The notes under the pieces: generated by a model
Seen by the model: the letters and a program-made list of their open reading frames with translations, nothing else
Database searches by the model: none
Told to the model about the DNA's origin: nothing
Program-made: the position numbers and the translations under genes
NCBI GenBank assembly: GCA_000716465.1
Contig: JNWL01000007.1
Coordinates: 62,001 to 126,000, forward strand
Source: Streptomyces bikiniensis
GTDB lineage: Bacteria; Actinomycetota; Actinomycetes; Streptomycetales; Streptomycetaceae
Reading direction: 5' to 3'
Length of the DNA: 64,000 nucleotides
Shown here: piece after piece, positions 29,196 to 54,405 of the stretch
How positions within the stretch are numbered: position 1 is the first letter of the stretch
How the letters are laid out: every line of letters starts with the position of its first letter

Positions 29196-30443
29196 TCACT
29201 CGGCCGGATCGGCCGTCCCGGGCTCCGTGGTGACCCGGATCGTCGCGCAGGCCTTCTCGCAGAGCGCCACCGCCGCGTCGGCGTCCGGGGCCACCGCGAT
29301 CACCTGGCCCAGGCGGTCCCAGCTCGACCGCAGCGGCCGGACCACGCTCCCCGGCTCCACCGGCAGGTCCACCTCCACCACTCCGTCCAGGGCCCGGGCC
29401 GCCTCCAGCCCCTCGACCGCCGTCACCGTGCCCGGCTCGGCGCCCAGGAAGCGGGTCGCCGCCGACCGCAGCGGGGCCGGCCGCTCGTCCAGGGCCGGCA
29501 GCCCGCCGCCCGGCCAGGCCACCGTGTACCGCTCGATGTCGAAGCCGTACGCCTCCTCCACCAGGTCCCGGATCCGGTCGCCGCCCGGCCGGTTGTGCGA
29601 CTCGATCACCCGCGGCCCGCGCTCCGACAGCCGCACCTCCGTGTGGCTGGGACCGCCCACCACCCCGACCGCGTCCAGGAACGTCGTCACGCACTCCACG
29701 ACCGCCGCCTCGTCCGCCGCGGCGATCCGGGCCGGCACCACGTGCCCCAGCTCCACGAAGTTGTCGTACGTCAGCTTCTCCGTGACGGCCACCACCACGT
29801 GGCGGCCCGCGAAGGTGAACGCCTCCACGCTGAGCTCCGGCCCGGAGACGTACTCCTCCATGAGGAAGCGGTCCAGCGGGAAGAAGCGGGCGAACTGGTG
29901 GTCCGAGTGACGCAGCCGCGTGATCGTCTCCCACACCTCGTCCAGCCGGTCCGCCGACTCGACGAGCTGGAGTCCCAGGCTGCCGATGCCGTCGACCGGC
30001 TTGACGATGAACGGGTACCCGTGGCGCGAGCCGAAGGCCGTCAGGCTCTCCCGGTCGCCGACCTCCTCCGCCGCGACCGAGACCGACGGGGCCGTGGCGG
30101 CCAGGTGCCGGCGCATGCTCAGCTTGTCCCGCAGCAGGTGGGCCACCTCGTGGGAGACGCCCCCCAGGCCCAGCAGGTCGCTGATCCGGCCCGCCGGTTC
30201 CACGCCCGCCTCCGTCGTGGTCACCACGCTCGTGAAGCCGTACGCGCGGTGCGCGGCGGCCACCAGGGGCTCGGTCACCGACCAGTCGGTGTAGTCCACC
30301 AGGAGGGCCGCGTCCACCAGGGAGGCGTGCTCGGGGGTGAACTGGCCGGGCTGCTGGAGGTAGACGACGCCGAGGCCCTGCTCCTTGGCCTTGCGGACGT
30401 TCTCGATCCGCCCGCCGACGACCAGCACGCGCTGTTCGGACAT
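29196..30443 (-). CDS. ATP-grasp carboxylate-amine ligase 1
   Basis: This is a 415-residue ATP-grasp ligase that would activate a carboxylate as acyl-phosphate and join it to an amine. Visible are an N-terminal Rossmann-like start (VLVVGGRIENVRKAKE), the ATP-binding Lys strand PFIVKPVDGIGSLGLQLV, the second ATP strand LMEEYVSGPELSVEAF, and metal-binding VIESHNRPGGDRI. AAGGAG precedes the ATG. It is the last gene of the leftward phosphonate operon and one of three ATP-grasp genes with differing nucleotide-binding loops, which suggests successive coupling steps onto a phosphonate or diaminopropionate unit. The exact partners cannot be told. Confidence 0.87.
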   Translation of the reverse strand: MSEQRVLVVGGRIENVRKAKEQGLGVVYLQQPGQFTPEHASLVDAALLVDYTDWSVTEPLVAAAHRAYGFTSVVTTTEAGVEPAGRISDLLGLGGVSHEVAHLLRDKLSMRRHLAATAPSVSVAAEEVGDRESLTAFGSRHGYPFIVKPVDGIGSLGLQLVESADRLDEVWETITRLRHSDHQFARFFPLDRFLMEEYVSGPELSVEAFTFAGRHVVVAVTEKLTYDNFVELGHVVPARIAAADEAAVVECVTTFLDAVGVVGGPSHTEVRLSERGPRVIESHNRPGGDRIRDLVEEAYGFDIERYTVAWPGGGLPALDERPAPLRSAATRFLGAEPGTVTAVEGLEAARALDGVVEVDLPVEPGSVVRPLRSSWDRLGQVIAVAPDADAAVALCEKACATIRVTTEPGTADPAE

Positions 30444-30540
30444 GTTGCTCCTTCACATGACGTTCGATGGTGGGCCCTTCGGGCCCGAATGACCGGGTCG
30501 CCGGACCGCTGGAATGCCGGACCGCCGGACCGCCGGGCCT

Positions 30541-30568
30541 CCGGCTCTCCGGCTCTCCGGCTCTCCGG
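30541..30568. repeat. 8-bp microsatellite (CCGGCTCT)3
   Basis: Three exact tandem CCGGCTCT units plus a trailing CCGG lie in the 134-base gap between two ATP-grasp genes. A TGGGCCC-TTC-GGGCCCGA hairpin sits nearby (about 30472-30489). No spacer pattern is present. Confidence 0.7.
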
Positions 30569-30577
30569 ACCGCCGCC

Positions 30578-31831
30578 TCAGGCGCCGGGGGCGGGCTCCG
30601 CGTCCCCGGTGAGCTCCACGACGGCCCCGGCGGCCAGCTCCCGGGCCAGCGCCCGCATCCGGTCCGGGGTGGCGCAGTCCAGGACCGCCCAGGCCAGCCG
30701 GTCCCCCGAGTCCTCGGCGGGACGCACCCGCGCGCCCGGCGCCAGCCTGGCGTCGTGCCGGGCCACCTCCGGCGACCGGGCCGCCCAGGCGGACAGGTCG
30801 AGGGCGGCGAGCGTCCCCGTACCGGGCGACGACAGGAAGAGGCTGCCCGCGGAGCGCACCGGGCCGTGGCCGTCCGGCACCGCCGGCTCCTCGTCCAGGG
30901 CGAGGCGCAGGCAGGCCGCGAAGGCGTCGAACCCGTGGGCCCGGCCGACGAGTTCCATGATGTGGTCGCCCGGGGTGCGGACGGCCACCTCCATGATCAC
31001 CGGCTGGTCGTCGGAGACCGCCCGGAACTCCAGGTGGGCGATGCCGGTCACCATGCCGAGCGCGGCGACCACGCCGCGGCACAGCTCGTCCGCCGCCTTC
31101 CGCAGCGCGGGCCGGTCCGCTCCGTGGCCCGCCTCGTGGAGCAGCTCCACGAAGTGCGGCGGGCCGGTGGTCTCCTTACGGGTCAGATTGGTGAACAGGA
31201 CCCGGCCGCGGTGGACCAGGGCCTCCACGCTGTACTCCTGGCCCTCGACGTACTGCTCGACCAGGAGCGGTCCCTCGGCGTCCCGGCGCGCGACCGCGTC
31301 CGCCCAGGCGTCGGGGGTGCCGATCCGCTCCACGCCCTGGCTGCCCTGCGAGGAGACCGGCTTGACCACGACGGGCAGCCGCGCCAGGGCCCAGTCGGTG
31401 GCCTCCGACAGCCGCCGGGTGTGGCGGTGGGCGGGCTGGGGCAGTCCGGTGCGGCCGAACTCGGCGCGCTGCAGGGCCTTGTTGCGGGAGACGGTCGCCG
31501 CGTCCAGGCCGGGCCCGGGCAGTCCCAGCCGGTGCTGGACCATCGCCGTGGCCAGCACGTGCGGCTCGGCGAAGCCCCAGACGGCGTCCGGGCCCAGCCG
31601 GGCCGCCAGGGTGGTCGCGGGCGCCAGCCAGCTCTCGTCCCGGCCCGCGGCGGCCTCGTCGACGGGTTCGAAGTCCACGAGGCACGGGAAGCGGTCCACG
31701 AGCTTGGCGTGCCGGGCGGGGGTCTCCACGACGCCCACCCGCAGCCCCAGGTCCTGGGCCGCGTGCAGGTACCCCTCGGCCATCACACCGGCGCCGACGA
31801 GGAGGATCGTGCGCTGCGTATCGTCTGCCAT
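30578..31831 (-). CDS. ATP-grasp carboxylate-amine ligase 2
   Basis: This is a 417-residue second ATP-grasp ligase of the cluster. The N-terminus TILLVGAGVMAEGYLHAAQDLGL is a Rossmann-like preATP-grasp fold. The ATP-binding strands are PVVVKPVSSQGSQGVERI and LVEQYVEGQEYSVEALV; the metal-binding segment is IMEVAVRTPGDHI, where the usual Asn is replaced. GGGAG precedes the ATG at 31831. It is separated from the next gene by 134 bases and from the upstream condensation-like gene by 37 bases. Family members such as BacD and DdaF ligate unprotected amino acids; here a diaminopropionate or aminoethylphosphonate partner is likely. Confidence 0.87.
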   Translation of the reverse strand: MADDTQRTILLVGAGVMAEGYLHAAQDLGLRVGVVETPARHAKLVDRFPCLVDFEPVDEAAAGRDESWLAPATTLAARLGPDAVWGFAEPHVLATAMVQHRLGLPGPGLDAATVSRNKALQRAEFGRTGLPQPAHRHTRRLSEATDWALARLPVVVKPVSSQGSQGVERIGTPDAWADAVARRDAEGPLLVEQYVEGQEYSVEALVHRGRVLFTNLTRKETTGPPHFVELLHEAGHGADRPALRKAADELCRGVVAALGMVTGIAHLEFRAVSDDQPVIMEVAVRTPGDHIMELVGRAHGFDAFAACLRLALDEEPAVPDGHGPVRSAGSLFLSSPGTGTLAALDLSAWAARSPEVARHDARLAPGARVRPAEDSGDRLAWAVLDCATPDRMRALARELAAGAVVELTGDAEPAPGA

Positions 31832-31868
31832 GGTTGGTGCTCCCAGATCTGTCTCGTACGAGGGGTGT

Positions 31869-33371
31869 TCAGCCCGCCGGAAGGGCGCCCGGGTCCGGCA
31901 GCGCCGGGCAGTCCGCGTCGAGGGCGGCCGCGCGCAGCAGCCGTTCGAGGGCGGCCGTCCACCGCTCGGCCCACTCCGGGGGGTGGACGGCGGTGTCGAC
32001 CTGCAGGAGCAGCCGGATGCCGTCGGCGTCCACGTCGGCACTGAGGTAGTGGCTCGCTCGCCACGGATCGGCGTCGGTCCACTCCGTCTCGGCCCGGTCC
32101 GCGGCGGCCGCGAGTTCCGCCGCGGTGGTCGGGCGGACGGGCAGGGCGGTGGAGCGCGGCCGGTAGTTGAGGGTCGGGGTGGCGTCGATCCGCACGCCCC
32201 GCTCCTCCGCCACGGTCCGGAGCAGCGCGGACAGCCGGTCGGGCGGGGCGCCGCCGGCCCGGAAGGCGCGCAGCGAGGCCGCGGCGGTGCGGCGCACCAG
32301 TTCGCGGAAGCCGGCGCCGGCCGTGTCCACGCAGCAGGGGACCGGCTGGGACAGCGGCAGGACGGCCGCGGCGGTCTCGGGCCGCAGCCGGTTCGCCGCG
32401 ATCAGCTGGACCGCCCCGTACCGGACGGCGCCCGTGCCGTCGCCGGCGGGCACGGGACCGGTCCTGGCGGCGTCGAGGGCCACCAGTGCGGCCGCGAGGA
32501 CGGCGGCCGGGGACTCCCCGGTGCCGGCGGCGACGGCGCCGACGGCGAGGTCCAGGGCGGGGGAGCGGTGCCGGAGGAACCGGTACCGCTCCCCCGTCGG
32601 CGTACCGGCCGGGGAACCCTGCCACGGGCCCGTCACGGGTTCCGGGGCGGGGGGCATGTGCCGGTAGGCGTGTTCGGCCAGGCTCAGGGCGCGCCGGGCG
32701 GCTCGCTCGCCCGCCGGGGACGACTCGGCGGCCGCCTGCTCGCGGGGCCCGCGCGCGGGGCCGCCCCGGGCGGGCGCGGAGCGGGCCACCGGGTCGGCCT
32801 CGGCGATCCGTTCGACCAGGTGCGCGGAGACCGGGACGAGCGCGTACGCGTCGACGGCGACGTGGCTGAAGGCCAGGGCGAGGTACCGCGCGCGGTCCCC
32901 CTCGGTGACGAGCGCCGCGCGCACCGGCCAGCACTCCGTCACGTCCAGGGGCGGGGCGGCGAGCGCGTCGAGGACGGCGCGCGCACGCTCCCCCGCGGTG
33001 CCCGCGGGCGCCTCGTGGACGGCGAGGCGCAGGACGCCGTGCCGGTGCACCCGTTGACGCGCCCCGCCCGCCCCGTCCCGTACGACCCGGCTGCGCAGCA
33101 CCTCGTACCGTTCGAGCAGTTCGCGCAGCGCGTCGGCGGTGCCCGCCTCGGTCGTCCCCGGACGCAGCCGGTACAGCCGGGGGACGTTGAGCCCCCGCCC
33201 GTGCTCCCGGGCCGCGTCGACCTCGGTGAGGTAGTACCGCTGGCTCCAGGTCAACGGCGCCTCGAAGGTGCCGGGGGCCGTCTCGCCGGTCGTGTCGCCC
33301 GCCGCGGGGTCCACCGCGGCCTGGAAGCGTACGGGGACGATGCGGCACGGGCCGGGGGCGGGGTGGGACAC
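31869..33371 (-). CDS. Stand-alone condensation-domain-like acyltransferase
   Basis: This 500-residue protein resembles NRPS condensation domains. PLTWSQRYYL matches the C1 motif, and SHVAVDAY (residues 169-175) stands where HHxxxDG is expected: the catalytic second His (H170) and the Asp (D174) remain, while the first His is Ser and the Gly is Ala. The C-terminal half continues the paired-lobe fold. It could form an amide with the carrier-bound aminoacyl group made by the adenylation domain (42959) and carrier (52245), or act as a free acyltransferase. The GTG start is three bases from the stop of the third ATP-grasp gene, so the two are coupled. Confidence 0.7.
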   Translation of the reverse strand: MSHPAPGPCRIVPVRFQAAVDPAAGDTTGETAPGTFEAPLTWSQRYYLTEVDAAREHGRGLNVPRLYRLRPGTTEAGTADALRELLERYEVLRSRVVRDGAGGARQRVHRHGVLRLAVHEAPAGTAGERARAVLDALAAPPLDVTECWPVRAALVTEGDRARYLALAFSHVAVDAYALVPVSAHLVERIAEADPVARSAPARGGPARGPREQAAAESSPAGERAARRALSLAEHAYRHMPPAPEPVTGPWQGSPAGTPTGERYRFLRHRSPALDLAVGAVAAGTGESPAAVLAAALVALDAARTGPVPAGDGTGAVRYGAVQLIAANRLRPETAAAVLPLSQPVPCCVDTAGAGFRELVRRTAAASLRAFRAGGAPPDRLSALLRTVAEERGVRIDATPTLNYRPRSTALPVRPTTAAELAAAADRAETEWTDADPWRASHYLSADVDADGIRLLLQVDTAVHPPEWAERWTAALERLLRAAALDADCPALPDPGALPAG

Positions 33372-33374: not shown

Positions 33375-34643
33375 CTATGCCTCCGGGGCCGTCTCGTCCA
33401 GCGGCGACCAGGTGAAGCGGAGGGTGTCGCCGGCCGCGTGGGCGCGGGCCAGGGCCTGCTCGCGGTCGGCGCCCTCGGCGATGATCCAGGCGGCCCGGTC
33501 GCGGTTGGAGCCGTTGGCCCGGTAGTCGATGCCGGCCTGGACGCCGGGGCGCAGGTGCACCTCGTGGACGCCGTCGAGGGCGAGGGCCTCGTCCACTCCG
33601 TCGACGGCGTCGAGGTGGCCGCTGGAGCGGAGCATCAGGAAGTGGATCGCGGCGGTGCGGTCGGTGGTGAGCGTGAGGTCCGGGGTGCCGCCGAGGAGCG
33701 CGGTCATGTGGAGCCGGCACATGTCGACGCCGCTGGCGATGCGGACGGCCTCCGGGATGCGGTCCCCGGCGATGCGGCCGTTGACCTCGATGACCCGGGC
33801 GTCCTTGCCGTCGGCGGTGAGCTTGAGCTCGACGTGGGACGGGCCCCAGGTGATGCCGACGGCCTTGACGGCGAGTTCGGCCTTCTCGACGAGCAGCCGC
33901 TCCTGCTCCCCGGGCAGGGCGGCCGGGAAGACGTGGCCCATCTCCAGGAAGAGGGGCGGCTCGCTGCCGATCTTCTCGGTGAGGCCGAGGACCTTGCCGT
34001 GCATGATCTCCGCGGAGTACTCGGCGCCCGGGACGCACTCCTCGACGATCACCTTCGGGGTGACCGCGTGGCCGAGGTACTCGCCGAGCCGCATGACCTC
34101 CGCGGTGATGGCGGTGACGTCCTCCGCGTTCTCGCAGCGGCGGACGAACAGGCTGCCGGTGAGGTCGAGCGGCTTGACGACGACGGGGTAGCCGATCTCC
34201 TCGGCGGCGGCCGCCGCGTCCTCCGGCGACGCGGCCACCCGGAACAGCGGGTTGAGGCCGGGCACGCCCGCCATCGCCTCGCGCATCGCGGACTTGGAGC
34301 GGCAGACGGCGACGGCATCCGGGTCGGGACCCGCCAGGCCGAGCCGGGCGGCGACCCGGGCGCCCATGTCGCAGTAGTACTCGTAGACGGAGGTGACGCC
34401 CACGAGTTCGCCCCGGGTGGCGAGCTCCTCGCAGAAGGCCACGATCGCGTCGGCGGAGTCGACGTCGCAGGCGCGGATCTCCACGCCGAGTTCGGCGTAG
34501 TCGTGGAGCAGCGAGGGGTGCAGGTGCGCCGGGTCGGCGGCGAGGATGATCGGCGTGATGCCCTGCTCCAGCAGGAAGCGGGCGCAGTCCTGGCCGGCGC
34601 CGGTCCAGGGGGAGTCGATGAACACTGCATAGCGGGGGGACAC
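33375..34643 (-). CDS. ATP-grasp carboxylate-amine ligase 3
   Basis: This is a 422-residue third ATP-grasp ligase. The N-terminal part has the substrate-side fold (YAVFIDSPWTGAGQDCARFLLEQGI). ATP-binding strands are PVVVKPLDLTGSLFVRRC and IVEECVPGAEYSAEIM, and the metal site is VIEVNGRIAGDRI, the most canonical of the three. GTG 34643 has GGAG six bases upstream. The condensation-like gene follows after three bases. It is upstream of ligases 2 and 1 in the operon, so three peptide or amide bonds might be made without a large NRPS. Confidence 0.88.
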   Translation of the reverse strand: MSPRYAVFIDSPWTGAGQDCARFLLEQGITPIILAADPAHLHPSLLHDYAELGVEIRACDVDSADAIVAFCEELATRGELVGVTSVYEYYCDMGARVAARLGLAGPDPDAVAVCRSKSAMREAMAGVPGLNPLFRVAASPEDAAAAAEEIGYPVVVKPLDLTGSLFVRRCENAEDVTAITAEVMRLGEYLGHAVTPKVIVEECVPGAEYSAEIMHGKVLGLTEKIGSEPPLFLEMGHVFPAALPGEQERLLVEKAELAVKAVGITWGPSHVELKLTADGKDARVIEVNGRIAGDRIPEAVRIASGVDMCRLHMTALLGGTPDLTLTTDRTAAIHFLMLRSSGHLDAVDGVDEALALDGVHEVHLRPGVQAGIDYRANGSNRDRAAWIIAEGADREQALARAHAAGDTLRFTWSPLDETAPEA

Positions 34644-34684: not shown

Positions 34685-35944
34685 TCAGGTGCGCAGCGGA
34701 GCGCCGTCCGCCGCCGGGGACTCCTCGGGTGCGGGGAGGTCGCGCAGGGTCCGCAGCCGGGAGAGCACCAGCCACAGGACGCCCGCGCTCATGCCGGCGC
34801 CGCCGACGAGGAGGGCGCCGCGGACCCCGATCCACTCGCCGAGGGCTCCGCCGGTCAGCGAGCCGAGCGGCAGGATCCCCCAGACCACGAAGCGGACGCT
34901 GGCGTTCATCCGGCCGAGCAGTTCCGGCGGGCACAGTTGCTGCCGGATGCTGACCTGACCGACGTTGTAGACGACGATGCCGAAGCTCATGGCGAACCAG
35001 GGCACCGCGAACAGCAGGCTCTGCCAGCCGCTCTCGGCGAACGGGATGAGCAGGGCGGTGGGCACGGTCAGCAGGTACGAGGTCCACATCGCGCGCACCT
35101 GTCCGAACCGGCGGGCGAGGCGGCCGGCGAAGGCGGCGCCGAGCACCCCGCCGACGCCGCTGACCGCCATGAGGACGCCGACGGTGGTGCCGGAGAGCCC
35201 CATCTCGTCGACGAGCAGCAGCATCACCAGGGGCAGGGTCACCGCGTAGAAGAAGTTGTAGGTGGCGGCGGAGCCGGTGATGGCCCGGAAGACCGGCTCG
35301 CGCAGGACGTACCGGAGCCCCTCGCGGATCTCGGCGCCCATCCGGCGCCGCTCCGGGCGCTCCGGCACCGCCTCCGGGGTGCGGATGCGGGAGAGCAGGA
35401 GCGCGGAGACGACGTGGGTGGCGGCCTGTACGGAGACGGTGGCGACGGCGCCGGCGAGCTGGACGAGGCCGCCGCCGAGGGTGGGCCCGGCCAGCCGGGA
35501 GACCGCGTTGGTGCTCTCCAGCCGGGCGTTGCCCTCGACCAGGTGGTCCCGGCCGACGACGACGGGGATGTACGACTGGTAGGCGATCTCGAAGAACGCG
35601 GTGGCCAGGCCGACGAGGAGGGTCACCCCGAGCAGGACGGGGAAGGTGATCGCGTCGAGGAGGAAGCCGACGACGATCGCCGCCATCAGCAGGGCCCGCA
35701 GCAGGTCGCAGGTGATGAGGATCGGGCGGCGCCGGGACCGGTCGACGAGGACGCCCGCGGGCAGGCCCACGAGGAGGAACGCCACCGTCTGCGCGGCCTG
35801 GAGCAGCCCCATCTGGAACGGGGTCGCGGACAGGGTGCTCGCGGCGAGCAGCGGGATGGCGATCCGGGTCATGTTGGTGCCGACCATGCTGACCGTCTGC
35901 GCGCCCCAGAACAGCCGGAACTCGGGGTTCTTCAGGAGGCTCAT
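34685..35944 (-). CDS. MFS transporter, probable product exporter
   Basis: This 419-residue major-facilitator protein has about 12 helices. The typical start LLKNPEFRLFWGAQTVSMVGTNMTRIAIPLLA and the loop-2 motif GLPAGVLVDRSRRRPILI match the MFS subgroup used for drug and metabolite export (DHA3-like). The ATG overlaps the stop of the tldE-like gene by four bases. As part of the leftward phosphonate operon it is a likely exporter of the final compound and a self-protection component. Confidence 0.88.
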   Translation of the reverse strand: MSLLKNPEFRLFWGAQTVSMVGTNMTRIAIPLLAASTLSATPFQMGLLQAAQTVAFLLVGLPAGVLVDRSRRRPILITCDLLRALLMAAIVVGFLLDAITFPVLLGVTLLVGLATAFFEIAYQSYIPVVVGRDHLVEGNARLESTNAVSRLAGPTLGGGLVQLAGAVATVSVQAATHVVSALLLSRIRTPEAVPERPERRRMGAEIREGLRYVLREPVFRAITGSAATYNFFYAVTLPLVMLLLVDEMGLSGTTVGVLMAVSGVGGVLGAAFAGRLARRFGQVRAMWTSYLLTVPTALLIPFAESGWQSLLFAVPWFAMSFGIVVYNVGQVSIRQQLCPPELLGRMNASVRFVVWGILPLGSLTGGALGEWIGVRGALLVGGAGMSAGVLWLVLSRLRTLRDLPAPEESPAADGAPLRT

Positions 35945-44674: not shown

Positions 44675-44675
44675 C

Positions 44676-45833: not shown

Positions 45834-46765
45834 GCGCCACCGCCGTGTCCCCGGCTTCCGCGACAGCGCCGGGCGCCACGGAGCAGGAGCCGGGACTGCT
45901 CGTCCTCAAGATCGGCGGCAGCCTGCTCTCCGACAAGCGGCACAGCGGGGAGACCGACCACGCGGCCATCGACGCGTACGCGCGCCTGGTCGCCGAACTG
46001 GTCGCCGCACGCCCCGGCCGGGTCGTCCTGGTCACCGGCGGCGGTGCCCTCTGCCACCCGGTCGGCCTGCGGATCAAGGCCGCGAAGGACGACCCGTACG
46101 CGGCCGTCGCCCTGACCGAACCGGCCTTCCGCATGCGCTGGGCGTGGACCACCGCGCTCCGCGCCCACGGGGTGCGGGCCGTGCCGCTCCAGACCACCTC
46201 GATGCTCAACGAACTGCCCGACGGCACCACCGTCACCGAGACCGGGGTGGTGTCCCGGCTCCTCGCGGAGGGCGCGCTGCCGGTGCTGTCCAGCGACTGC
46301 GTGGTCACCGCGGCCGGCACCCTGCGCATCCTCAGCAGCGACGACGTCCCCGGGGTGGTGCTCGACGCCGCCGTGGCCGCCGGCCCCGTCCGGGTCGTCG
46401 CCCTCACCGACGTGGCCGGCATCCACCTCGCGCGGGACCCGGACAGCCCGGTCCTGCCGTACCTCGACCCCGACGACCTGACCGCCGCGCGGCGGCTGTT
46501 CTGGGACGACGCGTGGGACGCCACCGGAGCCATGGAGGGCAAGGTCGAGGCGCTCGCCGCGCACGCCCGCCGCGGCGCCGAGTGCGTCATCACCCGCGGC
46601 GACCGCGGCCCGGGGGGCCTGCGGCACCTCTTCGCCCCCCTCGGCGCCTGGCCGGGCGACGTCCCCCGCACCCTGATCCGGCGCCGCACCCCCGCCCCCG
46701 CCGCCCGGCCGACCGACCGGGCCGCCGACCGGCCCACCGAACCGTCCCAGGAGGACCCCACATGA
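45830..46765 (+). CDS. Amino-acid-kinase-family kinase, FomA/isopentenyl-phosphate-kinase-like
   Basis: This 311-residue kinase of the amino-acid-kinase superfamily shows LLVLKIGGSLLSDKRH (K27, GGS loop), VLVTGGGALCHPVGL (phosphate-binding glycines and His), PVLSSDCVV and VVALTDVAGIHLA, all typical of isopentenyl phosphate kinase and of FomA, which phosphorylates fosfomycin for self-resistance. In a phosphonate cluster a FomA-like role (phosphorylating the phosphonate to protect the producer or protect the intermediate) is more likely than isoprenoid metabolism. The C-terminus has a Pro/Ala/Arg-rich tail. GTG 45830 and the ATG of the next gene overlap their neighbours. Confidence 0.82.
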   Translation: MSATAVSPASATAPGATEQEPGLLVLKIGGSLLSDKRHSGETDHAAIDAYARLVAELVAARPGRVVLVTGGGALCHPVGLRIKAAKDDPYAAVALTEPAFRMRWAWTTALRAHGVRAVPLQTTSMLNELPDGTTVTETGVVSRLLAEGALPVLSSDCVVTAAGTLRILSSDDVPGVVLDAAVAAGPVRVVALTDVAGIHLARDPDSPVLPYLDPDDLTAARRLFWDDAWDATGAMEGKVEALAAHARRGAECVITRGDRGPGGLRHLFAPLGAWPGDVPRTLIRRRTPAPAARPTDRAADRPTEPSQEDPT

Positions 46766-47886
46766 CCGGCACGCCCGGACGGCCCGACCGCGTCGTCCTG
46801 CTGAACCCGGGGCCCGTCAATGTGCACGACCGGGTCCGGGCCGCCCTGGCGGGCCCCGACGAGTGCCACCGGGAGCCCGAGACCCAGGCGCTCCTGGGCA
46901 CCGTCGCGGGCAAGATCACCGAGGTCTGCGGGGCCGACCGGGACAGCCACGCCGCGGTCCTGCTCACCGGCTCCGGCACGGCGGCCCTGGAGGCCGTCGT
47001 CAGTTCGGTCGTCCCCGCCGGGGGCCGCCTGCTGGTCCTGGACAACGGCCACTACGGCGAGCGGCTGCTCCGCATCGCGGACGTCCACGGCATCGACAGC
47101 GTCCGGCTGGAGTTCGGCTGGGCCGTCCCGCTCGACCTCGACGCGGTCGACCGCGCGCTCGCCGCCGACCCGGGCGTCACCCACGTCGCGGTCGTCCACC
47201 ACGAGACCAGCACCGGCATGCTCAACCCGCTGCGCGAGCTGGGCGCGCTGGTCGACCGCCACGGGCGGTCCCTGATCGTCGACGCGATCAGCAGCCTCGG
47301 CGCCGAGGACCTGGACGTCGTCCGGGACCACGTCGACTGGTGCGTCGGCACCGCCAACAAGTGCCTGGAGGGCATGCCGGGCATCAGCTTCGTCTGCGCT
47401 CCCCGGGAGCGCCTCGACGCCCTCGCGGACGTGCCCGCCCGCACCTTCTACTTCGACCTGTCGGCGAACTACCGCGCCCAGGTCCTCAAGGGCAGCCCGC
47501 AGTTCACGCCGGCCGTCCAGGTGCTGCGCGCCCTCGACGCGGCCCTCGACCTCACCCTCGCCGAGGGCGTCCCGGCGCGGACCGCGCGCTACGCGGCCCG
47601 TGCCGCCGAGATCCGCGCCGGTCTGGAGGAGCGCGGCATCGACCTGCTCCTGCCCGCGGACCAGAGGGCCGGCTCGATCACCAACGCGCACCTGGCCAAC
47701 GGCATGACGTACGACGAACTGCACGACGGTCTCAAGGAGCACGGCTACGTGATCTACGCGACCCAGGAGAAGTCCGCGGGCGTGTTCCGCCTCGCCAACA
47801 TGGGCCAGTTGACCGCCACCGACATCGCGGGCTTCTTCCGCGCCTTCGACGAGGTCGTGGCCCGGTGCGCGCCCTCGCCTTCCTGA
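46762..47886 (+). CDS. phnW: 2-aminoethylphosphonate aminotransferase
   Basis: This is a 374-residue fold-type I PLP transaminase of the AEPT family. It has LLNPGPVNV at the N-terminus, GSGTAALEAVV for phosphate binding, VDAISSLGAE with the PLP Asp, and the Schiff-base Lys K200 in VGTANKCLEGMPG. In this cluster it would run in the biosynthetic direction, aminating phosphonoacetaldehyde to 2-aminoethylphosphonate after PepM and the decarboxylase. Its ATG overlaps the stop of the kinase gene. No catabolic phosphonatase is present nearby, supporting biosynthesis. Confidence 0.93.
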   Translation: MTGTPGRPDRVVLLNPGPVNVHDRVRAALAGPDECHREPETQALLGTVAGKITEVCGADRDSHAAVLLTGSGTAALEAVVSSVVPAGGRLLVLDNGHYGERLLRIADVHGIDSVRLEFGWAVPLDLDAVDRALAADPGVTHVAVVHHETSTGMLNPLRELGALVDRHGRSLIVDAISSLGAEDLDVVRDHVDWCVGTANKCLEGMPGISFVCAPRERLDALADVPARTFYFDLSANYRAQVLKGSPQFTPAVQVLRALDAALDLTLAEGVPARTARYAARAAEIRAGLEERGIDLLLPADQRAGSITNAHLANGMTYDELHDGLKEHGYVIYATQEKSAGVFRLANMGQLTATDIAGFFRAFDEVVARCAPSPS

Positions 47887-47973: not shown

Positions 47974-50247
47974 GTGACAACCGACCATTCCGTGAACGCT
48001 GCGCCGATTCACCTGGCGATCGTGGGCGGCGGCCCGACCTGCACGTACGTCCTGGAACGCCTCGCCGCGCTGGTGCGCGACCGGCGGGACGCGGTCGCCC
48101 TGGAGATCGTGATCTACGACCTCTCGGGCGAGTTCGGGCCCGGCCAGGTCCACAGCCCTGACCAGACGAGGACCAGCTACCTCAACCGCGTCGTCGGCCA
48201 GGTGGCCTTCGCCGCGGACGAGAGCGTCGTCGACGCCGGCCCGCTGCTGTCCGCGTCCGAGCGGCCCACGCTGCTCGACTGGTGCCGCAGGAAGTTCGAG
48301 GAGACCGGCGACCCGGTCTACGACATGGTCGCCGAGGACTGGCCCAAGCGGTTCGTGCACGGCGAGGCCCTGCGCGACCAGTTCCGCGGGTACGTCGAGA
48401 TCCTGCGCGCCGCCGAGGGCGTCGAGGTGACCCTGCGGCAGGCCGAGGTCGTCGACCTGGAGGAGCGCGGCGACCGGTTCGCCGTCCTCACCGCCGACGG
48501 CGCCCCCGCCTACGAGGCCGACTACGTCCTCATGCTCACCGGCCACTCGTCCAACCGGCCGGAACTGGACCCGCGCCAGGCCCACCTGGCCCGGTTCGCC
48601 GACGCGCACCCGGGGGCGCACCTCATCCCCTCCGCGTACCCGCTGGAGCGGTCCCTGGACCCGGCGCACACCGGCCCGGGCACCACCGTCGCCTGTCTGG
48701 GCATGGGGCTCACCGGCATCGACGTGCTGCTCTACCTCACCGAGGGCCGCGGCGGCAGCTTCGAGCGGGACGCCGACGGCGAGCTCGTCTACCGCCCGTG
48801 CGGCGCCGAACCCGACTCCATCGTCGCGTTCAGCCGCTCCGGCCTGTTCACCTTCGCCCGGCCGTACAACGAGAAGGAACGCGACATCGCGGCCCTGGAG
48901 TACAAGGGCCCCTTCCTCACCACGGCGGCCGTGGCCGGGCTGCGGGCGACCGTCGGCGTGCCGAACGTCATCGGCGGCGCCCCCAAGCGCCAGCTCGACT
49001 TCGAGCGGCACGTCTTCCCGCTGATCCTCCTCGAAATGGCGCTCATCCAGTACGGGGTGCTGTACGGGACGGAGTTCCGCCGGGCGGCGATCCGGGCCGC
49101 GCAGCCGGCGTACGAGAAGTTCCTGGCCGACGCGGACGCCTTCGCCGACCACCACGAGGCCGGCGCGTTCCTCGTCGCGCCCGTCGAGGACCTGGCGCGG
49201 GACCTCGCGGACCGGGTCGACGACGTCCTGGCCGGCCGTACCGCCCTCGCGGTGTACGGCGACGGCGGGTCCGCCGGCGTCCTGCCGCCGGTCGACCGGG
49301 CGGTGCGCTCCTTCCTCACCGTCGTGTACGGCGCCGAACGGGCCGGGGCGCTGCTCGCGGAGGCCGGCGACCCGCACGCCTTCGCGGCCGCGGTCGCGGC
49401 GGCCGAGTCCCCGTGGCGGCACGCCACGCGGGCGGCCGACCACCGGTTCTCCTGGGAGCGGACCATCAACCCGGTGCCGGTGCCCGAGGGCGGTTACGCG
49501 AGCCCCGAGGAGTACGTCGAGACGTTCCTCGACTTCCTGGACCGGGACATCCGCTGGGCCGCCCAGGGCAATCTGAGCAACCCGGCGAAGGCGGCGGCCG
49601 ACGCCGCCTGGCGCGACATGCGGGGCGTCGTGATCGAGGCGGTCGACTTCGGCGGGCTGCTCGCCTCCTCGCACCGCACCTTCCTCAACGTGTACACGCC
49701 GCACCACAACCGGCTGTGCCAGGGCGCCTCGGTGGAGGCGATGGAGAAGGTCACCGCGCTGATCAAGAGCGGCCGGGTCGACATCTCGGTCGGTCCCGGC
49801 GCCCGGGTGGAGTGCGACGAGGAGCGCGGCCTGTTCCGCGTCAGCGGCCCGGCCACCGGTGCCGAGCGGTACGCGGACGCCCTCGTCGACGCGCGGGTCC
49901 ACGGCTTCGACGCCGAGCGCGACGTCATGCCGGTCTACCCGAACCTGCTGCGCCGCGGCATCGTCCGCAAGTGGGCCAACCCCGGTATCGGCGAAGCCGA
50001 CTTCGTCCCCGGCGGCCTGGACCTCACCCCCGAGTTCCACCCGGTCCGCGCCGATGGCAGGGTCGAGTCCCGGATCACCTTCCTGGGCCCGCCCAGCGAG
50101 GGTGTGATGTACCACCAGATCGGCGCCCTCCGACCGAACAAGGACCACCACGTCATCCGGGACATCCTCTGCTGGATCCACGCGTTCATGCCGCAGGAGT
50201 CCCCGGCCGGGGGGAAGACGAAGGAACTCGAAAGGAACCCGTCATGA
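47974..50247 (+). CDS. FAD/NAD(P)-binding oxidoreductase-like protein
   Basis: This is a 757-residue flavoprotein-like enzyme. The N-terminal dinucleotide-binding motif is LAIVGGGPTCTYVLERLAAL with conserved downstream FGPGQVHSP and YLNRVV; a second site appears at VACLGMGLTGIDVLLYL. This layout is the FAD-NAD(P)-binding family (PF13454-like), whose characterised members are few. The remaining ~450 residues have no recognised domain. It starts at GTG 47974 after an 87-base gap and overlaps the next gene by four bases. It might oxidise the amino or peptide intermediate, such as forming an imine or N-oxygenated group; this is conjecture. Confidence 0.75.
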   Translation: MTTDHSVNAAPIHLAIVGGGPTCTYVLERLAALVRDRRDAVALEIVIYDLSGEFGPGQVHSPDQTRTSYLNRVVGQVAFAADESVVDAGPLLSASERPTLLDWCRRKFEETGDPVYDMVAEDWPKRFVHGEALRDQFRGYVEILRAAEGVEVTLRQAEVVDLEERGDRFAVLTADGAPAYEADYVLMLTGHSSNRPELDPRQAHLARFADAHPGAHLIPSAYPLERSLDPAHTGPGTTVACLGMGLTGIDVLLYLTEGRGGSFERDADGELVYRPCGAEPDSIVAFSRSGLFTFARPYNEKERDIAALEYKGPFLTTAAVAGLRATVGVPNVIGGAPKRQLDFERHVFPLILLEMALIQYGVLYGTEFRRAAIRAAQPAYEKFLADADAFADHHEAGAFLVAPVEDLARDLADRVDDVLAGRTALAVYGDGGSAGVLPPVDRAVRSFLTVVYGAERAGALLAEAGDPHAFAAAVAAAESPWRHATRAADHRFSWERTINPVPVPEGGYASPEEYVETFLDFLDRDIRWAAQGNLSNPAKAAADAAWRDMRGVVIEAVDFGGLLASSHRTFLNVYTPHHNRLCQGASVEAMEKVTALIKSGRVDISVGPGARVECDEERGLFRVSGPATGAERYADALVDARVHGFDAERDVMPVYPNLLRRGIVRKWANPGIGEADFVPGGLDLTPEFHPVRADGRVESRITFLGPPSEGVMYHQIGALRPNKDHHVIRDILCWIHAFMPQESPAGGKTKELERNPS

Positions 50248-50987
50248 GCACCTCCATCGACTACACCGCACCCGAGTACGGCGGCGTCGACGTCCCCGAG
50301 CGGCTCAAGGAGATCCGCGCCGCGCACGACAGGCTCCGGGCCGCCGCCGCGGAGATCACGGAGGAGGGCGCCCGTGAGGCCGTCCACCTCCCGGGCTGGA
50401 CGCGCGGCCACGTCCTGATCCACCTCGCCGACCTGTCGCGGGCGTTCGCCCGCCAGGCCCGGTACGCCGCCGAGGGCAAGTCCGTCGAGGTGTACGACGG
50501 CGGGCGGCCCACCCGCGACCGGCGCATCGAGGAGCTGCACGGCGAGCCGGTCGCGTGGCTGCGGGAGCAGCTGGAGGAGGGCCTGACCGCCCTGGAGGAG
50601 GCCTGGGACGCGCTCGGCCCCGACGGCTGGGAGCTGCCCTGCTCGTACCGGAACTCGCCGCTGTTCGCGACCCAGCTCGCGTGGTGGAGGGAGACCGAGC
50701 TGCACACCGTCGACCTCACCGTCGGCTACGGCTCCGCGGAGTGGAGCACCGCGCTCTCCTCGCACGTGGTCTCCTTCCTGAAGGGCCGGCTGCCGCAGGG
50801 CGTCGCCCTGCACGCCGAGGACACCGGCCAGGAGTGGTCCACCGCGGCCGAGGGCGCGACCCCGGTGGTGGTCCGCGGCTCGCTGCGCGCGCTGGCCGCC
50901 TGGATCTCCGGCCGTCCGCACCCGGTCCTGCCGGTCGCGGACGGCGACCCGGCCGCGGCGCTGCCCGAGCTGACCGCCTGGCCGTAG
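50244..50987 (+). CDS. Mycothiol-dependent maleylpyruvate-isomerase-family (DinB-like) protein
   Basis: This is a 247-residue four-helix DinB-fold enzyme with the family's metal-binding His residues in LPGWTRGHVLIHLADLSRAFARQ and WWRETELHTVDL, and a smaller C-terminal domain. Members use mycothiol for isomerisation or thiol transfer, and many tailoring enzymes in actinomycete clusters belong here. In this operon it may act on an electrophilic phosphonate intermediate or detoxify one. The ATG overlaps the flavoprotein stop. A 104-base gap follows, with no clear promoter. Confidence 0.8.
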   Translation: MSTSIDYTAPEYGGVDVPERLKEIRAAHDRLRAAAAEITEEGAREAVHLPGWTRGHVLIHLADLSRAFARQARYAAEGKSVEVYDGGRPTRDRRIEELHGEPVAWLREQLEEGLTALEEAWDALGPDGWELPCSYRNSPLFATQLAWWRETELHTVDLTVGYGSAEWSTALSSHVVSFLKGRLPQGVALHAEDTGQEWSTAAEGATPVVVRGSLRALAAWISGRPHPVLPVADGDPAAALPELTAWP

Positions 50988-51091: not shown

Positions 51092-51658
51092 ATGACAGAC
51101 GCCCAGACCCTGACCGCACGGCCGCCGGCCGCCACGGGGCGCGAGAACGCGCAGCACGCGCAGAGCGCCGCCGAGGCGCTCGTCCAGGCCTTCGTGGACC
51201 GCGGGTTCACCCACTTCACCGGTGTCCCCTGCTCGCTCCTCAAGGGCGTCTTCCGGGTGCTGGAGAGCGGGGAGGGCCCCGCCGGGACCGTCTCCTACCT
51301 GCCCGCGCCCCGCGAGGACTCCGCGCTCGGCGTCGCCTCGGGCCTGTCGGCGGCCGGCGCGAAGCCCGTCGTCCTCATGCAGAACTCGGGCCTGGGCTAC
51401 TCCCTGAACGTGCTGACCTCGCTCAACCTCATCTACGACCTGCACGTGCCGCTGATCGTCAGCTGGCGCGGCCACGACGGGAACGACGCGGTCGAGCACG
51501 ACATCATCGGCCGCGAACTGCTCAACCTCCTCGACGTGTTCGGCCTGCGCCACACCGTCTTCGACCCGAGCGACCCCCACGGCTCCGTCGAGCGCTGCCT
51601 CGCGGCCGCCGAGGACGGACGCACCACTCCCGTCCTCATCGTCAAGGAAGGCATCTGA
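51092..51658 (+). CDS. Phosphonopyruvate decarboxylase, alpha (PYR-domain) subunit
   Basis: This 188-residue TPP-enzyme N-terminal domain has FVDRGFTHFTGVPCSLLKGVF, PREDSALGVASGLSAAGAKPVVLMQNSGLGYSLNVLTSL and WRGHDGNDAVEHDIIGREL, characteristic of phosphonopyruvate (and sulfopyruvate) decarboxylases; the PxED Glu activates TPP. Phosphonopyruvate decarboxylases are usually a single ~380-residue chain; here the second half is a separate gene two bases downstream, as in ComD/ComE. It converts phosphonopyruvate to phosphonoacetaldehyde, pulling the PepM equilibrium. Confidence 0.92.
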   Translation: MTDAQTLTARPPAATGRENAQHAQSAAEALVQAFVDRGFTHFTGVPCSLLKGVFRVLESGEGPAGTVSYLPAPREDSALGVASGLSAAGAKPVVLMQNSGLGYSLNVLTSLNLIYDLHVPLIVSWRGHDGNDAVEHDIIGRELLNLLDVFGLRHTVFDPSDPHGSVERCLAAAEDGRTTPVLIVKEGI

Positions 51659-51660
51659 GC

Positions 51661-52209
51661 ATGTTCGGCATCCAGGACGCGATCCGCGCGGTCACCGAGA
51701 AGTTCCCCACGTCCCTGTACGTGTCCACCTGCGGGTTCATCACCCGCGACCTCTACAACACCGCCGACCGGCCCGAGAACTTCTACCTGGTCGGGTCCAT
51801 GGGCATGGCCGCCCCCGTCGGCCTGGGCGTGGCGCTGGCCCGGCCGGGCCGCCACGTGGTCGTCCTCGACGGCGACGGTTCGTTCGCGATGAACCCCGGC
51901 GCGCTGCCGATGATCGCCGAGCACGCCCCGGACCTGGTGCACGTCGTCCTCGACAACGGCGTGCACGAGAGCACCGGTGGTCAGCGCCCGGTGCGCATCG
52001 CCGACCCGGTGGGCATGGCGCTCGCCGCCGGCTACTCCGCCGCGCACAGCGTCTCCTCGCCCGAGGAGCTGGCCGCCGTACGGCCCGAGCCGGGCGTCAC
52101 CACCCTGCTGCACGTCGCCTGCGCCCCGCGCGGCGCGCACGCCGGCAAGCGGGTGGAGTGGACCCCGCAGCAGCTCGTCGAGCGGTTCCGCGCCGCCGCG
52201 GCCGCCTGA
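51661..52209 (+). CDS. Phosphonopyruvate decarboxylase, beta (TPP-binding) subunit
   Basis: This 182-residue TPP-binding half has GSMGMAAPVGLGVALARPGRHVVVLDGDGSFAMNPGALPMIAEHAPDLVHVVLDNG. The GDGS motif at 71-74 and the Asn at 99 chelate the Mg that holds the diphosphate. HESTGGQR, which contacts the phosphonate in this family, follows. It starts two bases after the alpha-subunit stop, so the two are made in equal amounts. This is a natural split of one decarboxylase rather than a frameshift: each half has its own stop and start, and the domain boundary is clean. Confidence 0.92.
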   Translation: MFGIQDAIRAVTEKFPTSLYVSTCGFITRDLYNTADRPENFYLVGSMGMAAPVGLGVALARPGRHVVVLDGDGSFAMNPGALPMIAEHAPDLVHVVLDNGVHESTGGQRPVRIADPVGMALAAGYSAAHSVSSPEELAAVRPEPGVTTLLHVACAPRGAHAGKRVEWTPQQLVERFRAAAAA

Positions 52210-52244
52210 CACCCCCCACGGACACGGATAGGAGCACGCGCACC

Positions 52245-52517
52245 ATGGAAGACACCGCCGCGACCACGTCCGGGCAGGCGGAGCGGGTCCACAAGGTCCT
52301 GCTCGCGGTCCTGGGCGGCTCCGTCGACGTCTCCTCCCTCGGCCCCGGCGCCGACCTGTGGGAGGCGGGCATGGACTCGCTGCTGAGCGTGAGTCTGCTG
52401 GTCGCCCTGGAGGACGAGTTCGACGTCGAGTTCCCCGACGAGCTGCTGACCCGCGAGACGTTCGCCTCGGAGGCCGGCATCACCGCCGCCGTCACGACCC
52501 TGGCGGCGGCCGCGTGA
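52245..52517 (+). CDS. Free acyl/peptidyl carrier protein
   Basis: This 90-residue four-helix carrier has the phosphopantetheine site D44-S45-L46 in WEAGMDSLLSVSLLVALEDEF. It probably accepts the amino acid activated by the adenylation domain at 42959, on which the Fe/2OG oxygenase or condensation-like protein may act, as DdaD/DdaC do for diaminopropionate in dapdiamide synthesis. GGAG lies upstream. It overlaps the P-loop kinase-like gene by four bases. The A domain and carrier are separate genes, so they work in trans. No phosphopantetheinyl transferase is in the window. Confidence 0.9.
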   Translation: MEDTAATTSGQAERVHKVLLAVLGGSVDVSSLGPGADLWEAGMDSLLSVSLLVALEDEFDVEFPDELLTRETFASEAGITAAVTTLAAAA

Positions 52518-53557
52518 CGGCCGCCCCGACCCCCGCCGGGACGGGCACGACCGCCGGCCCGGCCGGACTGGGCGCGCTCCCGGTCCGCTCCACCCGGCTG
52601 GTGGACCTCAACCTCCTCTCGGTACGGATCTCCAGCAACCTCGAGGCCTTCGACGCCTACGCGTACTTCTCCCGCGAGGCGCCCGCCGGAACCGAGCCGG
52701 ACCACGAGATCGTCTGCGTGGACCTGGACCGGGACCCGTACGACCCGGAGGTGCTGCGGGGGCTCTGCGACCGCACGCTGCGGGCCAAGCGCTTCCGCTC
52801 GGGCTACTACCTCAACCACATCTTCGGCGACCCCGCGTACCTCGTCACCGAGGGCAGGCGCTCGTACGTCTTCGGCCGCCGCCTGGAGCGCACGGTCTGG
52901 CCGTACTTCGTCAAGCGGATCCTCACCGACTTCGCGGTCGACCACGGCTACCTGCACCTGAAGGCGGGCGGTTTCACCTTCGACGACGGCGCGGCCACGC
53001 TGCTCGTCGGGCCCAACGCCGGCGGCAAGACGGTGTTCCTCACCCAGGCCTGCCTGGACGGGGCGCGGTTCCTCACCAACACCCATGCGCTGGTGCGCGA
53101 CGGGGAGGCGCACGCCGTGCCCTCGGCGGTACGGGTCCGGCGGGCCCCGCAGTTCGAGCGGCTGATCGAGGAGCACGGGCTGACCCCGCACCTGGAGAGC
53201 GGGGACTTCGTGGCCGCGCCGGAGCTGCTGTTCGCGGGCGCGCCCAGCGACAGCGGGCGGGTCCGCAACATCGTGATCACCGACTTCTCCCCCGGGCGTC
53301 CGGGGGGCTTCGCGCGGATCACCGCGGAGCAGGCGGGCCTGTTCCTCGGCCTGTTCTCGGACGGGGTGGTCAACTACGGCCTGAAGGACGACCTGCTGGA
53401 CCATCACGGCGGCGACCTCGACGCGTTCACGGCCACCCTGGCCGGACTGCGCGCACAGCTCACCACCCTGGTCGAGGGCGCCCGCTGCTACCGGGCGAAC
53501 GTCGACATGCTCGATCCGCTCGTCCGCAAGACGGTGCTGGCGGAGCTGAGGGCGTGA
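52514..53557 (+). CDS. HPr-kinase-like P-loop protein, candidate phosphonate kinase
   Basis: This is a 347-residue protein with an N-terminal region (VDLNLLSVRISSNLEAFDAYAYF) and a C-terminal HPr-kinase-like ATPase. It has GYLHLKAGGFTFDDGAATLLVGPNAGGKTVFL with Walker A at 166-173, then GARFLTNTHALVRDGEAHAVPS as in the HprK fold. Such proteins occur in several peptide clusters. Because FomA and FomB together phosphorylate fosfomycin twice, and a FomA-like kinase is encoded at 45830, this could be the second, FomB-like, phosphonate-monophosphate kinase; I cannot verify the homology. The GTG overlaps the carrier stop and its own stop overlaps the exporter start. Confidence 0.65.
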   Translation: MTAAPTPAGTGTTAGPAGLGALPVRSTRLVDLNLLSVRISSNLEAFDAYAYFSREAPAGTEPDHEIVCVDLDRDPYDPEVLRGLCDRTLRAKRFRSGYYLNHIFGDPAYLVTEGRRSYVFGRRLERTVWPYFVKRILTDFAVDHGYLHLKAGGFTFDDGAATLLVGPNAGGKTVFLTQACLDGARFLTNTHALVRDGEAHAVPSAVRVRRAPQFERLIEEHGLTPHLESGDFVAAPELLFAGAPSDSGRVRNIVITDFSPGRPGGFARITAEQAGLFLGLFSDGVVNYGLKDDLLDHHGGDLDAFTATLAGLRAQLTTLVEGARCYRANVDMLDPLVRKTVLAELRA

Positions 53558-54405
53558 CGCCGCTCGTCGTCGGAGTGGTGCTGTTCGCCGCGGTAACCCA
53601 CGCGAGCTGGAACGCGATCACCCACCGCATCAAGGACGAACTGGCCTGCCTGAGCCTGGTCGGCGCCGGACGCACCCTGTCCGGCGCCGTCCTGGCGTGT
53701 CTGGCGCCGCTCCCGTCGCCGGCCGCCTGGCCGTACCTGATCGCCTCGGTCCTCCTGCACATCGGTTACCAGGTGGCGCTGATGCGCTCGTTCCGGCTGG
53801 GTGACTTCGGGCAGGTGTACCCGATCGCCCGGGGCGTGGCGCCGCTGCTGGTCACCCTGTTCGCCGTCTTCGCGCTGGGCGAGCACCTGGTGGGGGCCGG
53901 CGCGGCCGGGATCGCGGTCGCGACGACCGGGATCGTCGGCCTGGCGCTGTGGGGGGTCAGGGACCGGACCGGCCGGCCCAGCGGTCCGGCCGTGGCGATG
54001 GCCGCGACCACGGGCCTGATGATCGCCGTGTACACGGTGGTGGACGGCGTCGGTGTCCGCGAGGCCGGCGCGGCCCTCGGCTACATCGCCTGGCTGATGC
54101 TCCTCGACGGTCTGGCGATCCCCGCGTACGCGGCGGTCACGCTCCGCGGCGCCCTGCTCCCGAGGCTGCGCCCCGTCCTGCTGCCGGGCCTCGTCGGGGG
54201 CGTGCTGTCGGTCGTCTCGTACGGTCTGGTGCTGTGGGCGCAGACCAGGGCGCCGCTCGCGCCGGTGGCCGTGCTCCGCGAGTTCAGCGTGATCGCCGGC
54301 GCCGCGATCGCCGCGTTCTTCTTCAAGGAGCGCTTCGGCGGCCCGCGCATCGCCGCCGCCACCCTGATGGTCGCGGGCATCGCGCTGATGCTCGGCACGT
54401 CATAG
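53554..54405 (+). CDS. EamA/DMT-family transporter
   Basis: This is a 283-residue drug/metabolite transporter with ten hydrophobic helices in two five-helix halves. AVTHASWNAITHRI and the second half's LRPVLLPGLVGGVLSVVSYGLVLWAQTRAPLAPVAVLREFSVIAGAAIAAFFFKERFG (typical EamA end, with LRE...FKE) support the family. Together with the MFS gene in the divergent operon it gives the cluster two exporters. The GTG start overlaps the upstream stop as GTGA. This is the last clear gene of the rightward operon before the CYTH gene, 21 bases downstream. Confidence 0.88.
   Translation: MTPLVVGVVLFAAVTHASWNAITHRIKDELACLSLVGAGRTLSGAVLACLAPLPSPAAWPYLIASVLLHIGYQVALMRSFRLGDFGQVYPIARGVAPLLVTLFAVFALGEHLVGAGAAGIAVATTGIVGLALWGVRDRTGRPSGPAVAMAATTGLMIAVYTVVDGVGVREAGAALGYIAWLMLLDGLAIPAYAAVTLRGALLPRLRPVLLPGLVGGVLSVVSYGLVLWAQTRAPLAPVAVLREFSVIAGAAIAAFFFKERFGGPRIAAATLMVAGIALMLGTS

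Follow-up and report, generated by a model that had tools for sequence, protein, structure and literature searches.

A conserved gene cluster combining phosphonate and 2,3-diaminopropionate genes in Streptomyces bikiniensis, probably related to the hydroxynitrilaphos/phosphonocystoximate clusters

Gene content of the locus

The window analysed here, 64,000 nucleotides of contig JNWL01000007.1 of Streptomyces bikiniensis (assembly GCA_000716465.1, positions 62,001 to 126,000 of the forward strand), contains a gene cluster in which a phosphonate pathway starting from phosphoenolpyruvate mutase (PepM) is combined with genes for synthesis of 2,3-diaminopropionate (Dap). The conserved cluster spans approximately positions 26745-54891 of the window and consists of two divergent blocks. 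Genes were called by codon-position GC, and protein families were assigned by Pfam and NCBIfam scans. A first-pass annotation, made from the sequence alone, had placed the cluster at 29196..54405. All genes named in it were present in two divergent blocks and had Pfam or NCBIfam support. The span was too short at both ends, as genes for an HTH-TPR regulator, a PNPOx-like enzyme, and a CYTH protein that are conserved with the cluster lie beyond it. The inventory was correct in what it listed but had missed the N-oxidase, the mycothiol-dependent enzyme, the FomA-like and FomB kinases, the PNPOx-like gene, and the nucleotidyltransferase.

The genes assigned to the phosphonate branch and to Dap synthesis and activation, together with the kinases and the nucleotidyltransferase among them, are as follows:

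38730..39701, - strand: Fe(II)/2-oxoglutarate (Fe/2OG) oxygenase (TauD, 70.5 bits), predicted aminophosphonate C1-hydroxylase
39967..40827, + strand: PepM, phosphoenolpyruvate mutase (EDKLFPKMNS; PF13714, 184.2 bits, cut-off 31.5)
40877..41854, + strand: SbnA-type Dap-synthesis enzyme (TIGR03945, 359.8 bits, cut-off 349.95; TTG start)
41847..42962, + strand: SbnB-type Dap-synthesis enzyme (TIGR03944, 383.4 bits, cut-off 326.9)
42959..44674, + strand: stand-alone adenylation (A) domain (TIGR01733, 336.8 bits, above cut-off; code DIWEITADDK)
44676..45833, + strand: NTP_transf_5 nucleotidyltransferase (PF14907, 143.6 bits)
45830..46765, + strand: FomA-like kinase (FomA structure 3d40, E 5.5e-45; NF000338, 164.4 bits, cut-off 550)
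46762..47886, + strand: 2-aminoethylphosphonate (AEP) transaminase (TIGR03301, 357.2 bits, just under the cut-off of 360.8)
47992..50247, + strand: probable FAD/NADPH N-oxidase of 751 amino acids, PcxL/HpxL-like by context
50244..50987, + strand: mycothiol-dependent enzyme of the MDMPI/DinB type (TIGR03083, 93.8 bits, cut-off 50)
51092..51658, + strand: phosphonopyruvate decarboxylase (Ppd), alpha half (TIGR03845, 97.1 bits, and TIGR03297, 90.7 bits, both below cut-off)
51661..52209, + strand: Ppd, beta half (TIGR03846, 135.1 bits, and TIGR03297, 132.4 bits, both below cut-off)
52245..52517, + strand: free peptidyl carrier protein (PF00550, 36.6 bits; attachment serine present)
52514..53557, + strand: FomB-family phosphonate monophosphate kinase (NF000361, 572.3 bits, cut-off 400)

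The starts given for PepM (39967) and SbnA (40877) lie upstream of those set by the gene caller. The longer SbnA frame brings back the segment with the pyridoxal phosphate (PLP) lysine.

Phosphonate branch

The exact PepM motif EDKLFPKMNS (EDKx5NS), already read in the first-pass annotation, starts at position 40300. The core of this motif, searched for as a degenerate DNA pattern, occurred once in the window and in none of 100 shuffles. The protein remains under the cut-off of the NCBIfam model TIGR02320 (281.8 versus 319.55 bits). The AEP transaminase, likewise short of its NCBIfam cut-off, exceeds that of Pfam. PepM-dependent clusters need a downstream step that pulls the PepM reaction, usually Ppd, and both halves of this thiamine pyrophosphate enzyme exceed their Pfam cut-offs. 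The intact motif and the two predicted Ppd halves point to a PepM-dependent phosphonate cluster.

The closest solved structure of the Fe/2OG oxygenase is FrbJ, and the HxD motif is retained in 15 of 15 aligned rows (row counts here and below contain one S. californicus genome twice, as L062 and G223). A TauD relative was found in 5 of the 10 genomes queried. A phosphonate locus of Actinacidiphila glaucinigra, which carries no Dap genes, encodes a Fe/2OG enzyme 72% identical to that of the window; it adjoins genes for PepM, Ppd, a transaminase, and an N-oxidase of 46% identity.

The only solved relative of the 751-residue flavoprotein at E<=1 is the L-aspartate N-hydroxylase 8cp2 (128 bits over 353 residues). 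Homologs were present in 20 of the 394 genomes of the taxonomic family searched. A scan of named genomes gave 77 flavoprotein loci, of which 68 were mapped. PepM was encoded in 48 of these, and the AEP transaminase gene was located directly upstream of the flavoprotein gene in 40. Nine fusions of PepM with the flavoprotein occurred among the 120 matches listed (P0069, P0076, P0080, P0082, P0083, P0091, P0092, P0100, and P0104); they are ~980-1120 amino acids long, and two belong to named Solirubrobacterales. In a quick tree of 74 flavoproteins (LG+G4, SH-aLRT support only), the window protein grouped with those of nine other long-type clusters (support 100; these clusters are described below) and next, again with support 100, with those of four shorter clusters. 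The synteny counts exclude nine Sphingobacterium loci (L130-L138), two of which are in the tree.

HpxL is said to have (S)-1-hydroxy-AEP as its preferred substrate. PcxL has been described as an oxime-forming N-oxygenase that acts on AEP in phosphonocystoximate synthesis (PMC10404684). Taken with the PepM and transaminase neighbourhood, the PepM fusions, and the tree, this activity suggests that the window flavoprotein is probably an aminophosphonate N-oxidase, with its substrate assigned from context.

In the mycothiol-dependent enzyme, the His/Glu/His pattern (HxxxH and ExxxH-type residues) is retained across relatives. Two observations favour its predicted role: phosphonocystoximate is reported to contain an N-acetylcysteine part (PMC13302981), and the genome encodes, at another site, a mycothiol S-conjugate amidase (486 bits, cut-off 277).

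2,3-Diaminopropionate module

Scores above the curated cut-offs for both SbnA and SbnB, and the presence of the PLP lysine (SVK, retained in 17 of 17 rows), point to Dap synthesis. The closest solved structures of the window SbnA are SbnA itself and the capreomycin enzyme CmnB. The pathway is the one known from staphyloferrin B and, with CmnB, capreomycin; unlike there, the two genes are followed by those for a free-standing A domain and a nucleotidyltransferase, within a phosphonate cluster.

The A-domain code DIWEITADDK was identical in 15 of 20 rows; the remaining five differ at one position, and one of these variants comes from a split draft gene. We take this code to resemble those for short diamino acids (2,4-diaminobutyrate and ornithine codes). 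The DS motif of the carrier protein is retained in 19 of 19 rows.

The best evidence for the function of this A domain comes from genome G024. A 25-kb contig of this genome (L158, L159) encodes SbnA, SbnB, the A domain, the carrier, and the nucleotidyltransferase at 46-63% identity, with an identical A-domain code and a condensation-like match. A search for PepM gave no match on this contig. Since the code is shared with a Dap cluster without a visible PepM, the A domain is predicted to activate Dap, and the module is predicted to be portable. The G024 cluster may offer a route to other Dap compounds. For the cluster studied here, Dap is likely to be part of the final product, in which it would be retained.

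Kinases and nucleotidyltransferase

The FomB-family protein lies well within its equivalog model, which identifies it as a predicted FomB. The FomA-like kinase aligns with FomA along its length and retains the His of GGGAxxH, while its score is far under the FomA equivalog cut-off; the designation FomA-like thus refers only to a presumed similar mode of action. FomA and FomB are known as fosfomycin self-resistance kinases; no fosfomycin genes were seen. Relatives of FomB were found in 11 of the 23 genomes queried. FomB was considered as proof of a phosphonate product and set aside: a relative of 50% identity (L163, G098:C22) lies in a 20-kb stretch in which no other protein of the window has a match at E<=1e-5.

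The model of the nucleotidyltransferase is confident (pLDDT 93). Its weak fold matches are nearest to FKRP, ANT(2'')-Ia, and LnuA. None of the 64 PDB matches reached E<=0.001, so that no function follows from the structure.

Peptide-bond enzymes, TldD/TldE, and exporters

The remaining genes of the fullest cluster versions are located mainly in the left block:

29196..30443, - strand: ATP-grasp ligase 1, amino-acid ligase type (ATP-grasp_4, LAL_C2)
30578..31831, - strand: ATP-grasp ligase 2 (ATP-grasp_4, LAL_C2)
31869..33371, - strand: stand-alone condensation-like protein (PF00668, 38.6 bits, cut-off 30.6, over 139 residues only)
33375..34625, - strand: ATP-grasp ligase 3 (ATP-grasp_4, LAL_C2; closest solved structures are L-amino acid ligases)
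34685..35944, - strand: major facilitator superfamily (MFS) exporter (MFS_1, 167.8 bits)
35941..37326, - strand: TldE-like partner (PF19289, 152.7 bits)
37323..38645, - strand: TldD-like metallopeptidase (PF19289, 199.2 bits; HEACCH in 13 of 13 rows)
53554..54405, + strand: EamA exporter (PF00892, 45.5 bits)

The condensation-like protein has SHVAVD where HHxxxDG is expected; the second His and the Asp are retained in 13 of 13 rows. Dap and ATP-grasp ligases are common to this cluster and that of the dapdiamides. In contrast to the latter, two of the window ligases gave only 26.9 and 24.8 bits with the model of the dapdiamide ligase DdaF, for which the cut-off is 840, and to our knowledge dapdiamide synthesis proceeds without PepM.

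Distribution of related clusters

The gene order from ATP-grasp ligase 1 to EamA is conserved, at 72-95% identity, in Streptomyces sp. SCUT-3 (G012, the same genome as L072), G263, and S. californicus (G223), where the SbnA match covers 44% only. Less similar long forms occur in S. flaveolus, NRRL WC-3645, NRRL WC-3549, and S. lonarensis; in this last species TldD/TldE are missing from between MFS and TauD. Some drafts contain split frames (NRRL WC-3549; SbnA of S. californicus). Locus L154, which derived from a wrong contig, was left out.

Short forms were found in Kitasatospora atroaurantiaca, K. setae, Dactylosporangium aurantiacum, and Streptosporangium carneum. These carry PepM, SbnA, SbnB, the A domain, the nucleotidyltransferase, FomA, the transaminase, the N-oxidase, the mycothiol-dependent enzyme, Ppd, FomB, and TauD, and their accessory genes differ from those of the window. 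A second type, represented by S. anulatus NRRL B-2873, NRRL S-455, and strain I6 (L073-L075, L139-L144), retains the Dap and peptide parts and has no match to the window Ppd, TauD, or FomB. Its upstream genes encode an alcohol dehydrogenase (ADH), a semialdehyde dehydrogenase, and a phosphoglycerate kinase (PGK); a P-loop kinase-like protein, recognised by eye, adjoins FomA in place of FomB.

Conservation of the core was counted over the 14 named loci with SbnA or SbnB. SbnB, the A domain, FomA, the transaminase, and the N-oxidase were present in all 14; PepM, SbnA, the nucleotidyltransferase, and the mycothiol-dependent enzyme in 13; and Ppd, TauD, and FomB in 10. The view that AEP-forming and Dap pathways belong to one cluster, as first annotated, is thus borne out by its conservation, with peptide-bond enzymes accompanying them in the fullest versions. 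The possibility of two unrelated neighbouring clusters was discarded: the Dap genes sit between PepM and the transaminase, and this arrangement is kept in four genera. For a plasmid match of 45% (H1), the annotation lists neither Dap genes nor PepM.

Relation to described phosphonate clusters

K. atroaurantiaca and K. setae hold a homologous cluster core, and each has one strong PepM, located in this cluster (282 and 286 bits, respectively; the next best scores are 32 and 30.5). According to PMC12723261, the phosphonate clusters of K. setae DSM 43861 and K. atroaurantiaca DSM 41649 fall into the gene cluster families GCF01-GCF03, together with those of the strains that make hydroxynitrilaphos (NRRL WC-3744) and phosphonocystoximate (NRRL S-481). 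The same source reports phosphonates detected by 31P nuclear magnetic resonance (NMR) in both Kitasatospora strains. The cluster had been called undescribed; with its core already assigned to GCF01-GCF03 through these two strains, that claim is unsupported.

The clusters for hydroxynitrilaphos and (hydroxy)phosphonocystoximate (S. regensis NRRL WC-3744 and Streptomyces sp. NRRL S-481) would have in common with the window PepM, Ppd, the transaminase, and a putative N-oxidase whose family fits. The window would differ from them as a long form with three ATP-grasp ligases, the condensation-like protein, and TldD/TldE.

A phosphonate-nonribosomal peptide synthetase hybrid cluster that may make a phosphonopeptide has been reported for Streptomyces sp. 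I6 (PMC6346202). This strain holds a relative of the window cluster (L073), which differs in having no Ppd, TauD, or FomB. Strain I6 has two PepM clusters, and we infer that this relative is the one reported. Text searches of the open-licence literature returned no description of Dap combined with a phosphonate in the portions covered; the terms co-occur in PMC9237127 and PMC11705231.

Proposed pathway and alternatives

We consider it fairly probable that the cluster belongs to the hydroxynitrilaphos/phosphonocystoximate kind, as an extended version in which an N-oxidised aminophosphonate is joined to Dap. The individual reactions are proposed from the protein families, motifs, and conserved gene company described above. 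PepM would convert phosphoenolpyruvate to phosphonopyruvate, PpdAB would decarboxylate this to phosphonoacetaldehyde, and the transaminase would yield AEP. The Fe/2OG enzyme would then hydroxylate C1, the flavoprotein would oxidise the amine to an oxime, and the mycothiol-dependent enzyme would capture or process the carbon thus oxidised, as a thiol adduct. In a parallel branch, SbnA and SbnB would make Dap, which the stand-alone A domain would load on the carrier. The condensation-like protein and the ATP-grasp ligases may link the phosphonate with Dap and further amino acids. Phosphorylation of the phosphonate by FomA and FomB would provide self-protection, the MFS and EamA proteins would export the product, and TldD/TldE may trim a peptide. 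The formation of AEP proposed in the first-pass annotation is kept in this scheme; the branch probably continues beyond AEP, because the N-oxidase and the mycothiol-dependent enzyme come after it.

Several observations weigh against this assignment. Membership of the window in the family is indirect: it relies on the published clustering of two relatives rather than on direct comparison with the reference clusters. The known products of the presumed family, as far as they are described in PMC13302981, are without Dap. The clusters of K. atroaurantiaca, K. setae, Dactylosporangium, and Streptosporangium lack the three ATP-grasp ligases, TldD/TldE, and the MFS exporter or have other genes in their place, which shows that the peptide part is not universal. 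As many as 18 of the 68 mapped flavoprotein loci have neither PepM nor the transaminase; the flavoprotein family thus extends beyond phosphonates. Assignment to the PcxL/HpxL type was attempted from the published 58% identity between the HpxL-strain protein and PcxL. This value fits the split between the window clade and its sister (54-61%) and was not decisive; it also fits another PepM-linked flavoprotein group (41-93%, median 57). Finally, in the 20-kb stretch around the FomB relative of 50% identity, no other window protein was matched at E<=1e-5.

The conserved Dap-loading module, the mycothiol-dependent enzyme, and the genomic mycothiol S-conjugate amidase led us to a more specific and quite tentative version of the scheme, in which phosphonocystoximate-like compounds would be shunt products. 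The amine of carrier-bound Dap would attack the oxidised carbon, giving an amino acid of the phosphono-amidoxime or cyclised amidine type, and the ATP-grasp ligases would extend this to a peptide; the bond between Dap and the phosphonate carbon is speculative. Phosphonate trapped by mycothiol would end as an N-acetylcysteine conjugate through the amidase of the cell. The peptide would be taken up by competitors, and FomA and FomB would keep it masked in the producer.

The strongest alternative, which we still regard as unlikely, is that the cluster makes only small compounds of the hydroxynitrilaphos or hydroxyphosphonocystoximate type and that the Dap module is a relic or belongs to a second, distinct product. 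Hydroxynitrilaphos is reportedly a nitrile, and the known family products bear an N-acetylcysteine or a nitrile, not Dap. The occurrence of the Dap module apart from a visible PepM in G024 agrees with this, as does locus L071, which has PepM, FomA, the transaminase, the N-oxidase, and the mycothiol-dependent enzyme and no Dap genes. A joint product is favoured, however, by the gene arrangement: on a single strand, the genes for SbnA/SbnB, the A domain, and the nucleotidyltransferase alternate in one block with those for PepM and the transaminase. This holds, at 54-95% identity, for four genera (Streptomyces, Kitasatospora, Dactylosporangium, and Streptosporangium).

It is improbable that the product is an amide of AEP itself with Dap or a peptide and that the phosphonate is not N-oxidised, as first proposed. 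The presence of the ligases, the condensation-like protein, and the transaminase agrees with such a product. Three of the best-conserved parts of the cluster, namely the N-oxidase, the mycothiol-dependent enzyme, and the PNPOx-like gene, would then have no role. A flavoprotein acting as an aspartate or Dap N-hydroxylase that gives nitrite or a nitro group, as FzmM/CreE, for a phosphonate with an N-N bond is highly improbable: although the one relative with a solved structure, 8cp2, hydroxylates aspartate at nitrogen, the family is far from it, no lyase partner was seen among the annotated genes of the cluster, and the neighbourhood and PepM fusions indicate an aminophosphonate substrate.

If an N-oxidised aminophosphonate is indeed joined to Dap, a kind of phosphonate hitherto tied to small oxime or nitrile compounds has conserved machinery for making, activating, and ligating Dap, together with two phosphonate kinases, and the compounds isolated from the family would be fragments or by-products. 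The question can be addressed in strains in which phosphonates have already been seen by 31P NMR. A defined A-domain code for Dap would also be at hand, and relatives vary in the route to the warhead (Ppd/TauD/FomB versus PGK/semialdehyde dehydrogenase/ADH), with the Dap part in common.

Borders of the cluster

Three further genes mark the edges of the conserved region:

26745..27983, - strand: HTH-TPR regulator (Pfam HTH_31/TPR), left edge of the conserved block
28479..29144, - strand: PNPOx-like flavin enzyme (PF01243, 70.1 bits)
54427..54891, + strand: CYTH protein, triphosphate-tunnel type (PF01928, 38.1 bits), right edge

Of 14 extended regions, 11 have a relative of the regulator (50-82% identity) next to the cluster, and 12 have one of the PNPOx-like gene (66-87%), which is fragmented in the remaining two. 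The CYTH gene adjoins the cluster in seven other genomes. Within the genus it was found in 4 of 61 genomes, the one studied here included; the other carriers are the S. flaveolus cluster and two matches at 48% and 39%. Chance neighbourhood was set aside because of this rarity: of the 60 other genomes, 3 carry the gene, and the cluster is present in one of these 3. There is thus a slight indication that the CYTH gene belongs with the cluster. Its product might act on the diphosphorylated phosphonate that FomA and FomB would make. A tRNA-Ala (cgc) gene is located at 54973-55047, just outside the right edge.

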